Virus record (IMG/VR): IMGVR_UViG_3300012000_000049
Coordinates: 1 to 40,293 of that record
Source: a virus
Reading direction: 5' to 3' (one strand)
DNA: 40,293 nucleotides
The position numbers and the translations under genes are program-made. Every line of letters starts with the position of its first letter. The first letter of the stretch is position 1. Below, one piece after another: positions 31,301 to 34,170 of this stretch. The notes beneath the pieces were generated by a model, which was given only the letters and a program-made list of their open reading frames with translations, was not told the DNA's origin and ran no database searches.

Positions 31301-32879
31301 AGGAACTCTACTCCCCTATCAACCTGAAGCGGTCGACAAGATGTGCGAACGTGGCAAGGTTCTAGTGGCGTATGACCTCGGACTAGGTAAGACCGTCCTT
31401 ACCATTGCGGCTATAGAACGTTTGATGGATGAGCGGAAAGTAAAAGAACCAGGTCTTATAATTTGTCTATCCTCATTGAAATATCAGTGGGCTAATCAGA
31501 TAGAGAAATTTACAGATGGTACTTCACGTGCTTTGGTCGTTGACGGAACGCCAAAGAAAAGAGCAGAGCAGTACGACCTTGCGAAAGACTGGCGTAATAC
31601 AGGGGTTGATTACATCATCCTTAATTATGAGCAAGTTGTTAACGACTGGGATACCGTCAAAGACTTACCAAGAGGATTTGTCGTCCTTGACGAGGCCACA
31701 GCCATCAAGTCATTTAAATCAAAGCGTTCCAAAGCCGTCAAAAAACTTATCAACACACCATATAGGTTTGCACTCACGGGTACCCCTATTGAGAATGGTC
31801 GTCCAGAAGAGTTGTATAGCATTATGCAATTCGTTGACGCCAGCGTACTTGGTAGGTTTGATATCTTTGACGCGGCTTTCATTGTAAGAAACTCTTGGGG
31901 CGCACCCCAGTATTACCGCAACTTGTCTACCCTTCACAATAAGATGAAGGAAGCTTCTGTGCGTAAGGCACAAAAAGACCCAGATGTTGCACCTTTCTTG
32001 CCTGACACAATTCACAAAGACCCAATTACTGTCATATTTGATAGAGCATCATCAAAGGTTTATACCAAGATAGCTCAAGACTTGCTTGCAGACTTAGATG
32101 AGGCACAGGATTTATTTGGTTCTAACTTTAACATCATGGCTCACTACGGCATGGAATCTCGACGTGGTGGCCCAGAGGATGAGATGCGTGGAAAGATTAT
32201 GTCTAAGATTGGAGCACTTAAGATGCTCTGCTCTCATCCAGACTTGTTACGCAGCAGCGCTACTAAATTTAAACAAATGGGCGGAGAGGGTTCCGCATAT
32301 ATAGCTGAGCTTGTCGATAATGGGGTTTTAGATAGCTGCAAGGATTCACCTAAATTAGATTACCTAGTTAGGTATGTTCAAGAGTTTCTAGAACAAAGCG
32401 AAGAGAATAAGGTTGTTATATTTGCTACCTACGTTGACATGCTAGACAAGATTACCGATGCACTTGGGGCAGATATCTGTCGCCAATACTCTGGGAGGAT
32501 GGATGCTCGTACTAAAGAATCTAACAAAACTGACTTCAATACTAATCCCGCTGTACGCGTACTGGTTAGTTCTGACGCTGGGGGCTACGGTGTGGACCTT
32601 CCTGCTGCTAATCTCCTTATCAATTACGACCTCCCTTGGTCTTCGGGCAGTGCAACGCAAAGGAATGGCCGCATACAAAGAGCATCATCAACTTGGCCCT
32701 CAATCGTAATTCAAGATTTAATTATGGCTGGCTCTATTGAAGAACGCCAGCACGATATGCTTCAACAGAAGTCCTCTGTGGCTAACGCCATCATAGATGG
32801 CAATGGCATAGAAGACGGTGATAAACTTTCCATGACGGTCGATAGCCTCAGGTCCTACCTGACTAACGGCAACGTTTAG
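31293..32879 (+). CDS. SNF2-like superfamily 2 DNA helicase/translocase
   Basis: Start chosen at the ATG at 31293 (MFKGTLLPYQPEAV), which overlaps the kinase stop by eight nucleotides; a frame start at 31272 adds only seven residues and a larger overlap. The product is 528 residues. Motifs: Q-like LLPYQ, Walker A DLGLGKT (28-34), Walker B VLDEATAIK (131-139), motif III ALTGTPIENGR (160-170), then KVVIFATYVDML, LVSSDAGGYGVDLPAANLLI and motif VI QRNGRIQRASS. This is the SNF2/RapA subtype common in phages, probably a fork-remodelling or recombination translocase. The stop is adjacent to tRNA-Asn. Confidence 0.9.
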   Translation: MFKGTLLPYQPEAVDKMCERGKVLVAYDLGLGKTVLTIAAIERLMDERKVKEPGLIICLSSLKYQWANQIEKFTDGTSRALVVDGTPKKRAEQYDLAKDWRNTGVDYIILNYEQVVNDWDTVKDLPRGFVVLDEATAIKSFKSKRSKAVKKLINTPYRFALTGTPIENGRPEELYSIMQFVDASVLGRFDIFDAAFIVRNSWGAPQYYRNLSTLHNKMKEASVRKAQKDPDVAPFLPDTIHKDPITVIFDRASSKVYTKIAQDLLADLDEAQDLFGSNFNIMAHYGMESRRGGPEDEMRGKIMSKIGALKMLCSHPDLLRSSATKFKQMGGEGSAYIAELVDNGVLDSCKDSPKLDYLVRYVQEFLEQSEENKVVIFATYVDMLDKITDALGADICRQYSGRMDARTKESNKTDFNTNPAVRVLVSSDAGGYGVDLPAANLLINYDLPWSSGSATQRNGRIQRASSTWPSIVIQDLIMAGSIEERQHDMLQQKSSVANAIIDGNGIEDGDKLSMTVDSLRSYLTNGNV

Positions 32880-32952
32880 TGCCCTATAGCTCAGTTGGCA
32901 GAGCATCGCACTGTTAATGCGAGTGTCCCTGGTTCGAGTCCAGGTGGGGCAG
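32880..32952 (+). tRNA. tRNA-Asn (GTT)
   Basis: A full cloverleaf. Acceptor TGCCCTA pairs with TGGGGCA, the D stem is GCTC/GAGC, and the anticodon arm is TCGCA-CTGTTAA-TGCGA with GTT at 32913-32915. The T arm is CCTGG-TTCGAGT-CCAGG. Discriminator G fits Asn identity. CCA is not encoded. It starts one base after the helicase stop. Confidence 0.93.
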
Positions 32953-33214
32953 CAGAGTAACACTTTGTATGGCTTCTCATTGGTTGGAAGTTTACGCAAG
33001 TATCTAAGGGTTTCTAGAGCCGCTTAGACGGTCTCGTCAGGGGACTCGGTTAATCCTTACGGCGTGGTTTAAACCGACCTGACATTTTTGGTACTAAGGC
33101 TGCGTTGCGGTAAGACCGACTCCTGACGAGGACAGCTGGAGGACAACGAGCTTGTGTAAATCCTCATGTATCATGGCTGGTAGGTTAGTCTGCTCGTAGA
33201 CTTACTAGCCGCTT
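32953..33214 (+). ncRNA. Candidate structured RNA between tRNAs
   Basis: These 262 nt contain no convincing ORF but fold repeatedly. TCTAAG/CTTAGA (33003-33008, 33023-33028) is one hairpin. CTCGTCAGG/CCTGACGAG (33033-33041, 33122-33130) continues as ACTCGGT/ACCGACT (one C-C mismatch) and CTTAC/GTAAG (33056-33060, 33110-33114) on one long stem. A palindrome GGTTTAAACC (33066-33075) lies inside it. A hairpin at 33175-33211 (GGCT/AGCC outer, AGTCT/AGACT inner) ends just before tRNA-Gly. The 5' arm can pair instead with AACCG-A-CCTGAC (33072-33083), which is followed by ATTTTT, a terminator-like alternative. It may be a phage ncRNA, a switch or a tRNA-precursor processing structure. No family recognised; the exact ends are unknown. 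Confidence 0.45.
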
Positions 33215-33290
33215 GCGGTTGTAGCTCAGTTGATAGAGCGGTACCTTGCCAAGGTACAGGTCGCGGGTTTGAGCCCCGTCAACCGCTCCA
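33215..33290 (+). tRNA. tRNA-Gly (GCC)
   Basis: Acceptor GCGGTTG/CAACCGC, D stem GCTC/GAGC, anticodon arm GTACC-TTGCCAA-GGTAC with GCC at 33248-33250, and T arm GCGGG-TTTGAGC-CCCGT. Discriminator T and an encoded CCA (33288-33290) follow. Confidence 0.95.
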
Positions 33291-33291
33291 T

Positions 33292-33365
33292 TCCCCTCTC
33301 GTCTAACGGTAGGACAGCGCACTCTGGATGCGCCAGTTGTGGTTCGAATCCATGGGGGGGAGCCA
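33292..33365 (+). tRNA. tRNA-Gln (CTG)
   Basis: Acceptor TCCCCTC/GGGGGGA (one G-U), D stem GTC/GAC, anticodon arm GCGCA-CTCTGGA-TGCGC with CTG at 33324-33326, and T arm TGTGG-TTCGAAT-CCATG with two wobble pairs. Discriminator G fits Gln; CCA is encoded (33363-33365). It begins two bases after tRNA-Gly and so is probably co-transcribed. Confidence 0.92.
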
Positions 33366-33368
33366 GTA

Positions 33369-33391
33369 CACCCAACATTTATCGTTGGGTG
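33369..33391 (+). repeat. Hairpin directly after the tRNA cluster
   Basis: CACCCAAC (33369-33376) and GTTGGGTG (33384-33391) form a perfect 8-bp stem with a 7-nt loop, three bases after the tRNA-Gln CCA. Only two T follow, so it is a weak terminator at best; a processing or stabilising hairpin is equally possible. Confidence 0.5.
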
Positions 33392-33407
33392 CCCTTACAC
33401 TATAAGA

Positions 33408-33557
33408 ATGCCTAACTCGCCTAAGACCCCCACACGTACTATTCGTGTGTCCGATAACCTTTGGACGGCTGTGCAACGAAAAGCTGCAGCTGAGAAGGTT
33501 ACGGTTACCAGCGTTATTATCCGCGCTCTTCAAAACTATATTAAAGAAGATAAATAA
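33408..33557 (+). CDS. Ribbon-helix-helix DNA-binding protein
   Basis: A 49-residue protein; the ATG at 33408 is used because the longer frame from 33339 begins inside tRNA-Gln. RTIRVSDNLWTAVQRKAAAE is the RHH strand and helix 1, and KVTVTSVIIRALQNYIKED is helix 2, as in Arc/CopG repressors that bind DNA as dimers. No Shine-Dalgarno is present; TACACT ends exactly six nucleotides before the ATG, which fits a leaderless transcript. It is probably a small phage regulator. The target is unknown. Confidence 0.75.
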   Translation: MPNSPKTPTRTIRVSDNLWTAVQRKAAAEKVTVTSVIIRALQNYIKEDK

Positions 33558-33558
33558 A

Positions 33559-33717
33559 ATGGGGAAACACCAAGATAAGATAGCCGCCGCCCTAAAGTGG
33601 CGACAGGACAACATGCCTAAGGGCACTGGGTTTAAGAAGCCAGGCAGCATGAACAAGAAGAAGACTGGCTATCGCAGCTACACCGCAAAAGAAGCAGCAC
33701 GCATCGTCAGTAAGTAA
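33559..33717 (+). CDS. Small basic protein, function unknown
   Basis: A 52-residue protein starting one base after the RHH gene stop at the ATG at 33559; a longer frame from 33445 would overlap the RHH gene in another frame and is rejected. The sequence (MGKHQDKIAAALKWRQDNMP, KGTGFKKPGSMNKKKTGYRS, YTAKEAARIVSK) is basic with a short helical end resembling a degenerate HTH. The Shine-Dalgarno is weak, so translation may be coupled to the RHH gene. Confidence 0.5.
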   Translation: MGKHQDKIAAALKWRQDNMPKGTGFKKPGSMNKKKTGYRSYTAKEAARIVSK

Positions 33718-33718
33718 C

Positions 33719-33771
33719 TTGACACTGTCATAGTCATCCATTAAGTTCTGCCTAACAAGCTAAACGTTAGG
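33719..33771 (+). promoter_or_regulatory. Possible promoter and RBS hairpin upstream of 33778
   Basis: A perfect -35 TTGACA lies at 33719-33724, but the -10 at 17-nt spacing (TAAGTT) is weak. Downstream, CCTAAC (33751-33756) can pair with GTTAGG (33766-33771), placing the AGG of the ribosome site in the 3' arm seven nucleotides before the ATG. Both could act on the next gene. Confidence 0.3.
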
Positions 33772-33777
33772 AAACTT

Positions 33778-34170
33778 ATGGACATTGAAGCAATCAAAGA
33801 AGACATCCGCCAATTCAAGGCGTTGAAAGATAACGTCGACCTTCTAACCAAACGTCAGTCAGATATTAAAAAGCGTCTGACAGATAACATTGAACAGTTT
33901 GGTACAGAGGATGAAAAAGGACACATCGTTCTATCTGTAGATGAGAACGAACAAATCATGAAACAAAAGCGTGTGTCAAAGAGTCTTGATATCAGTGCAG
34001 CAGAAATCATTCTTACCAAAAAAGGTATCCGTGAGACCTGCATTAAAATGGTTCCAACATTAGATGAGGCAGCGATTATGGCTGCTTTTTATAACGGTCA
34101 TCTATCTGAAGAAGATATTGATACCATGTTCCCAGCAAAGGTGAGTTACGCGTTTATCGTTGGGAAGTAA
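33778..34170 (+). CDS. Hypothetical protein with N-terminal coiled coil
   Basis: A 130-residue protein with TTAGGAA before the ATG. Residues 1-42 are a charged heptad helix (DIEAIKEDIRQFKALKDNVD, LLTKRQSDIKKRLTDNIEQ). A short beta part follows (GHIVLSVDENEQIMKQKRVS), then helices (LDISAAEIILTKKGIRETCI; TLDEAAIMAAFYNGHLSEED). It is not recognised as an enzyme. It comes after small DNA-binding proteins and before a MerR-like protein and an SSB-like protein, suggesting a DNA-metabolism accessory. Its end lies two bases before the next ATG. Confidence 0.5.
   Translation: MDIEAIKEDIRQFKALKDNVDLLTKRQSDIKKRLTDNIEQFGTEDEKGHIVLSVDENEQIMKQKRVSKSLDISAAEIILTKKGIRETCIKMVPTLDEAAIMAAFYNGHLSEEDIDTMFPAKVSYAFIVGK

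Follow-up and report, generated by a model that had tools for sequence, protein, structure and literature searches.

Two families of small structured RNAs in phage tRNA arrays

The window, i.e. the whole stretch of DNA that was analysed, is the IMG/VR record IMGVR_UViG_3300012000_000049, positions 1 to 40,293 (40,293 nt). The loci and records compared with it carry L numbers; L001 is the window itself and L002 is the same phage. The spacer bounded by tRNA-Asn and tRNA-Gly, as delimited by ARAGORN, comprises positions 32954-33214 and is 261 nt long. It had been described in a first-pass annotation as a non-coding stretch of 262 nt (32953-33214); its non-coding nature was confirmed, and its extent had to be corrected. 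Stops interrupt all six frames. The tRNA-Asn gene, which starts at 32880, directly abuts the end of a helicase ORF at 32879 without a spacer. An inverted repeat (ACCCAAC/GTTGGGT, approximately 33370-33392) is located 3' of tRNA-Gln and may mark where the transcript of the array ends or belong to a 5' UTR. The features of the locus are as follows.

32880..32953, + strand: tRNA-Asn(GTT), 5' neighbour of the spacer (ARAGORN, Rfam).
32955..33084, + strand: RNA family alpha, 130 nt (124.6 bits with R1, the alpha covariance model, the window being one of its 15 training rows; alignment A1; 20/20 IMG/VR records).
33085..33089, + strand: T5 linker at the alpha/beta junction; its U-tract had been taken as part of a terminator (count of T-rich tails).
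33090..33214, + strand: RNA family beta, 125 nt (alignment A3, pair counts, matches of R2, the beta model).
33215..33290, + strand: tRNA-Gly(GCC), 3' neighbour (ARAGORN).

Relatives of the locus were collected via the helicase gene just upstream of the array, which yielded at least 80 IMG/VR loci. Among the matches listed, any tRNA was present in 45 of the 81 loci compared (window included), and both tRNA-Asn and tRNA-Gly were present in 40. In these 40 loci, again among the matches listed, the gap between the two genes measures 3 nt in 34 and 6 nt in four (38 related loci), and 261 nt only in the window and L002. Two contigs whose assembly numbers differ (3300014050 and 3300008962) carry the identical 261 nt; the spacer is therefore not an artefact of a single assembly. 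Neither alpha nor beta was detected in the 50 related records that were searched whole (50 of 79, among the matches listed). The spacer is an insertion in the lineage of the window, or it was lost by the relatives.

Direct BLAST recovered only near-identical copies of the spacer. Distant copies of alpha were found by means of spaced seeds, for which the spacer was translated with stops read as serine. The first of these copies, L097/L098 and L100, match the left half of the spacer with 78-80% identity, and each is flanked by tRNAs. A motif pattern built from them led to 20 IMG/VR records, two of which are the window phage. R1 matched all 20 motif-found records with one copy each, and these contain 16 distinct alpha sequences. 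Fifteen of them were aligned by using MAFFT (A1); the sixteenth was completed later and is outside the pair counts. In A1, 19 positions were fixed by the search pattern, so that their invariance reflects selection of the copies. Columns 105 and 115 and the stems P1, P1b, P2, and P3 were free to vary under this pattern.

In 17 of 17 copies checked, alpha starts 0-1 nt 3' of a tRNA, and in 12 of these 17 the downstream tRNA starts 1-5 nt after its end. The upstream tRNA is of isotype Asn, Met, Glu, Trp, Asp or Leu, and the close downstream tRNA of isotype Gln, Gly, Lys, Asn or Ser. The first bases of alpha at the tRNA junction are not conserved. In the window, alpha is followed by beta and not by a tRNA. 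In L111, L113, and L115, the next tRNA lies 277-867 nt past alpha and a CDS start follows instead; L114 contains no tRNA between alpha and the nearby contig end. This CDS reads about 80 codons in L111 and L113, its start was also seen in L114 and L115, and the product of L111, the only copy scanned, matches DUF7455. Because the address is kept while the neighbours change, alpha resembles an RNA gene of the array more than a cis-regulator. In the stretches compared, the alpha loci have no ORF in common with the window by blastp, and alpha therefore seems to move between phages. No protein partner common to all alpha phage groups was found. Four of the seven groups, which were set by hand from shared ORFs, have Hsp20-related ORFs close to the tRNA array. 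These ORFs are located in L101, L104, L105, L106, L108, L110, L112, L118, L129, L130, and L133; the copy of L101 matches Hsp20.

The helices of alpha were assigned on A1 and have the following positions in the window.

32962..33001, + strand: P1 (32962-32968/32996-33001) and P1b (32972-32977/32986-32991); 3 and 4 double-changed pairs, respectively.
33003..33028, + strand: P2 hairpin, loop 33009-33022 with the palindrome TCTAGA at 33013-33018; 4 double-changed pairs, palindrome test.
33030..33046, + strand: S1 (33030-33034/33042-33046), whose loop is the 5' strand of P3; a GC/CG/AU pair, 15/15 rows paired.
33036..33083, + strand: P3 (33036-33041/33078-33083), previously proposed as fold A; 3 double-changed pairs, all cells paired.
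33046-33051/33072-33077, + strand: P4a, alternative inner pairing; seen in A1.
33060-33063/33073-33076, + strand: P4b, alternative inner pairing, the last pair being C-A in the window; A1 pair count.

P4a pairs UCGGUU with AACYGA and P4b pairs CRGY with RCYG; the two are alternatives. For the six helices, 97.0% of the 495 cells of A1 are paired, compared to 31-39% in slid versions. Double changes were observed in 17 of the 33 pairs (mean of shuffles 13.0; 1 of 500 shuffles as high) and in 75 cells (26.8 in shuffles). The covariation score is 0.462 versus 0.201 in shuffled alignments, none of which reached this value in 500 trials. One control did not back the structure: further pair types in alpha were no more numerous than in the shuffles, 468 of 500 of which were as high. 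In the tree of alpha, which has poor resolution, five of 12 inner branches are well supported; the double changes were therefore not counted as independent events.

A scan of all column pairs of A1 revealed S1, a helix of 5 bp that encloses the 5' strand of P3 in its loop. Columns 105 and 115 of S1 pair as C-G in seven rows, as G-C in five, and as A-U in three. Only two of the 7657 gap-free column pairs combine three Watson-Crick types with Watson-Crick pairing in all 15 rows; one belongs to P2 and the other to S1. Strictly Watson-Crick, double-changed column pairs amount to 13, and nine of these are inside the proposed structure. Thus, S1 and P3 form a predicted H-type pseudoknot, shown by covariation, and the fold deduced for alpha in the same way comprises two hairpins and this pseudoknot. 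Three G-U or U-G pairs are kept (102-118 in 15, 15-67 in 14, and 106-114 in 13 of 15 rows). A kept G-U pair would read A-C on the other strand, which argues that the folded molecule is an RNA in the sense of the tRNAs.

The P2 loop carries a central palindrome, which is TCTAGA, TTCTAGAA, TTCTGCAGAA, CCTGCAGG or GCTAGC, depending on the copy. Nine of the ten distinct loops have a palindrome of at least 6 nt; in L109/L117 it is the 4-nt palindrome CTAG only. Compared to shuffled loops, the p value is 5e-5 for the ten loops, which are related, and 7e-4 for five representatives. Palindromes of 6-8 nt also occur in single other loops, namely in P1b of L101 and L109 and in columns 119-134 of L109. 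Adjacent bases in the middle of a palindrome are unable to pair with each other within one molecule; a centre that changes as a unit therefore speaks for intermolecular pairing. The same argument is made in a passage of PMC12286853, a paper on GOLLD, ROOL, and OLE RNAs. The palindromes suggest that alpha might form kissing-loop homodimers via its P2 loop. A further palindrome of 10 nt, GGTTTAAACC, had been reported for the window and is indeed present at 33066-33075.

Beta, the right half of the spacer, has matches in the alpha loci L106, L107, L109, and L117, all of which have the order tRNA-Leu, beta, tRNA-Trp, alpha. R2 matched six of the 20 alpha records, two of these being the window phage. 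The helices of beta, all taken from A3, are located in the window as follows.

33090-33094/33168-33172, + strand: P1.
33098-33102/33133-33137, + strand: P2.
33108-33110/33116-33118, + strand: P3.
33121-33124/33129-33132, + strand: P4.
33139-33143/33161-33165, + strand: P5.
33175-33186/33199-33210, + strand: P6.

Double changes were found in ten of the 36 pairs, compared to 0-3 in slid versions, in an alignment of five rows of which two are nearly identical; most of these changes distinguish the window from the rest. The cells are paired to 98.9% versus 30-44% when the helices are slid. Further pair types in beta were not above the shuffles (137 of 500 as high). The predicted fold, shown by covariation, is a multibranched domain followed by a 3' hairpin. 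An origin of the right half by tandem duplication was rejected, as 240 of 1000 shuffles reached the score; the region is beta instead.

Folding energies were calculated for comparison. None of 200 shuffles folds as well as the whole spacer (z -3.3). However, a stronger z value was obtained for 17 of 308 tiles of the window, and folding energy alone is therefore weak evidence. Alpha on its own was not significant by this measure (z -1.4 in the window, 0.19 and -0.3 in two relatives), nor was the right half of the spacer (z -0.3). The convincing evidence for structure is the covariation in the relatives and not the folding energy. Protein-family scans of the six frames yielded DUF5473 as the best Pfam match, below its cut-off (E 0.065), and a best PHROG match with E 0.15. 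In conclusion, the spacer is real, non-coding, and structured.

An Rfam search of the spacer at E<=10 gave a miRNA family as the sole match (E 4.1), in agreement with the initial view that it is a structured RNA without a known family. Neither alpha nor beta matched an Rfam family above the gathering threshold. The best match below threshold on the alpha side was SECIS_4 on L118 (17.4 of 38 bits, E 0.16), and the only one for beta had an E value of 7.3. A BLAST search of INPHARED with the window spacer, with alpha of L100, L097, L109, L113, and L101, and with beta of L106 gave no or short matches only. The best of these, in Providencia phage PSTCR7lys, was rejected: it lies within an annotated CDS and covers 25-26 nt (92-96% identity, E 0.03-2), the alignment with R1 is limited to 20 positions there (15.7 bits, E 0.0004 in 2 kb), and the match is probably a chance fragment. 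A plasmid search returned four records with E values of 0.8-10. Two scans of GTDB genome contigs with 12 window seeds gave 137 and 355 stretches, among which no relative was confirmed. Exact 17-18-mers of the window recovered near-identical copies and one match in an unrelated stretch (L083). R1 and R2, applied with default filters to the tRNA arrays of cultured phages (L093, L140-L143), had no match at E<=1, and no description of alpha or beta RNAs was recognised among the open-access papers searched.

Taken together, we regard it as probable that phage tRNA arrays carry, in alpha and beta, two genes for small structured RNAs, which are released by tRNA-processing enzymes and act in trans. 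Both would be transcribed together with the array. Trimming of the upstream tRNA 3' end by RNase Z-type enzymes or exonucleases would generate the 5' end of alpha, and cleavage at the 5' end of the downstream tRNA by RNase P would release the RNA. The expected products are stable RNAs of about 130-160 nt for alpha and 125 nt for beta. Alpha would dimerise via its P2 loop, as suggested by palindromes that are kept through sequence change, and both RNAs would act on a host or phage target. In the lineage of the window, alpha and beta would have been gained together as one insertion of approximately 258 nt.

The first-pass annotation had instead viewed the spacer as one RNA of 262 nt with two mutually exclusive folds, a kind of pairing typical of switches and attenuators. 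On this reading, a single 5' arm would enter either a terminator hairpin or a longer stem, and the choice would control the downstream tRNAs. Both pairings exist in the window: the stem 33036-33041/33078-33083 is followed by ATTTTT, and the 9-bp stem 33033-33041/33122-33130 is present as well. As the transcript grows, the terminator-like pair has a probability of 0.76 at RNA ends 33085-33090 and of 0.07-0.58 up to 33125, and it is gone at 33130. In the window, a model without pseudoknots favours fold B by about 10 kcal/mol over the fold keeping P3 of alpha. A smaller ambiguity exists family-wide, since the strand ACYGA has two possible partners, UCGGU and CRGY. However, only fold A is a helix of one family, namely P3 of alpha; fold B joins alpha to beta. 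The second 3' partner, 33110-33130, corresponds to P3-P4 of beta and pairs with covarying strands of beta itself. In the four other beta-bearing loci, beta sits upstream of alpha, with tRNA-Trp in between. The single RNA thus resolves into two separable families. A tail with at least five T in eight positions follows P3 in five of the 16 distinct copies, and at least six T occur only in the window and L106. As so strong a tail is confined to these two, the terminator is not a feature of the family; 11 copies lack a T-rich tail, and no + strand site was called when 32500-33900 was scanned for consensus terminators. Moreover, no consistent downstream gene exists that might be controlled, as alpha is followed by a Gln, Gly, Lys, Asn or Ser tRNA, by beta, or by a CDS. 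The switch reading is therefore weak, and we deem it quite unlikely. Fold B may compete with alpha in the uncut precursor of the window, as a peculiarity of this phage, and some alpha copies may also terminate after P3.

The flush position of alpha at the tRNA 3' end in 17 of 17 copies would also fit a spacer that serves for processing or insulation, perhaps as a ribozyme, and aids the maturation of the flanking tRNAs without a role of its own. Yet alpha occurs only once per record, in arrays with several tRNAs, and the lack of conservation at the junction is unusual for a self-cleavage site; we consider this explanation unlikely. One copy in each of 20 records is also at odds with a mobile DNA element that would use tRNA 3' ends as insertion sites and its hairpins as a folded single-stranded recombination site. 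The insertion polymorphism in the window phage group, the occurrence in loci without an ORF in common with the window by blastp, and the differing tRNA neighbours are in line with such an element, but the kept G-U pairs favour RNA and no duplicated target was seen by eye at the insertion in the window, which makes this origin very unlikely. That the spacer is left over from the decay of tRNAs or a protein gene, an explanation already raised in the first pass and suggested by the location in a tRNA cluster, has a practically negligible probability: no tRNA (RF00005) match was obtained in the spacer at E<=10, none of the six frames gave a credible protein family, and the compensatory changes that the first pass had asked for in homologous spacers were observed in the relatives of both alpha and beta.

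With alpha and beta taken as RNA genes of the array, they can be compared to known RNAs. The T4 array contains rnaC (species 1, 139 nt), located 1 nt after a tRNA, and rnaD (species 2, 119 nt), located 6 nt after rnaC. The function of RNA C and RNA D is stated as unknown in passages of PMC3014915 and PMC9697503. They share with alpha and beta their size range and their location in a phage tRNA array, with the first RNA directly downstream of a tRNA. In contrast, no match in sequence and structure to either model was found in the 3.5-kb T4 region (L128) with filters off (best E 1.9 for R1 and 0.8 for R2). The best reading is that alpha and beta resemble T4 RNA C and RNA D in position and not in sequence, the T4 RNAs being the closest in size and place. 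GOLLD and ROOL are described in passages of PMC12286853 as structured phage RNAs of unknown function that are often near tRNA islands and form kissing-loop multimers; for GOLLD and OLE, loops are reported there in which self-complementary letters change together. Alpha is likewise near tRNA genes in phages. Alpha and beta are much smaller than these RNAs (GOLLD is often longer than 800 nt according to the same passages), and unlike GOLLD and ROOL they have no Rfam match above the gathering threshold. Among known RNAs, alpha and beta come closest in kind to GOLLD and ROOL.

For YrlA and Y RNAs, a Ro-like protein is annotated in or beside the tRNA array of three cultured actinophages (L140, L141, and L142). 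In contrast to such loci, none of the 20 alpha records, many of which are fragments, contains a TROVE domain (the control matched in one of 14 genomes), and YrlA was not among the Rfam matches of alpha or beta. The gaps between the tRNAs of L140, L141, and L142 may hide Y-like RNAs. We regard alpha and beta as undescribed families of a known kind, namely orphan structured RNAs of phage tRNA arrays, and the compact pseudoknotted, possibly self-pairing form is a variant.

A more speculative proposal is that the pseudoknotted alpha RNA of about 135 nt self-assembles via its palindromic kissing loop, is released with the tRNAs, and that, sometimes with beta, an RNA-only complex or one with a host protein disarms a host function, e.g. 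a tRNA-targeting defence. We hold this for improbable; if true, alpha would be a compact counterpart of GOLLD and ROOL, passed among unrelated phages. Several alpha phages may plausibly have an actinobacterial host, given the kinship of the window helicase, whose nearest named relatives are those of Streptomyces phages (about 39%), the DUF7455 protein, and a marginal proteasome-like ORF. Viral tRNA clusters can carry structured RNA genes besides tRNAs. Two more families that have an address like that of T4 RNA C and RNA D, show covariation, and bear signs of horizontal spread suggest that structured non-tRNA genes are regularly housed in phage tRNA arrays. The models R1 and R2 and the pseudoknot are direct handles for probing the two RNAs.

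Other gaps of the arrays are occupied as well. In L018-L023, L025, L028-L030, and L040, tRNA-Gly and tRNA-Gln are 535 nt apart and an open frame fills the space; it was translated for L018, and its TKTGDTGT motif suggests a putative cobalamin adenosyltransferase. The corresponding gap of L027 measures 503 nt and holds a stretch that, judged by its motif, is presumably an HNH-nuclease gene. It is preceded by a piece resembling the 5' part of tRNA-Gln, an arrangement that looks as if the gene had been inserted at tRNA-Gln.
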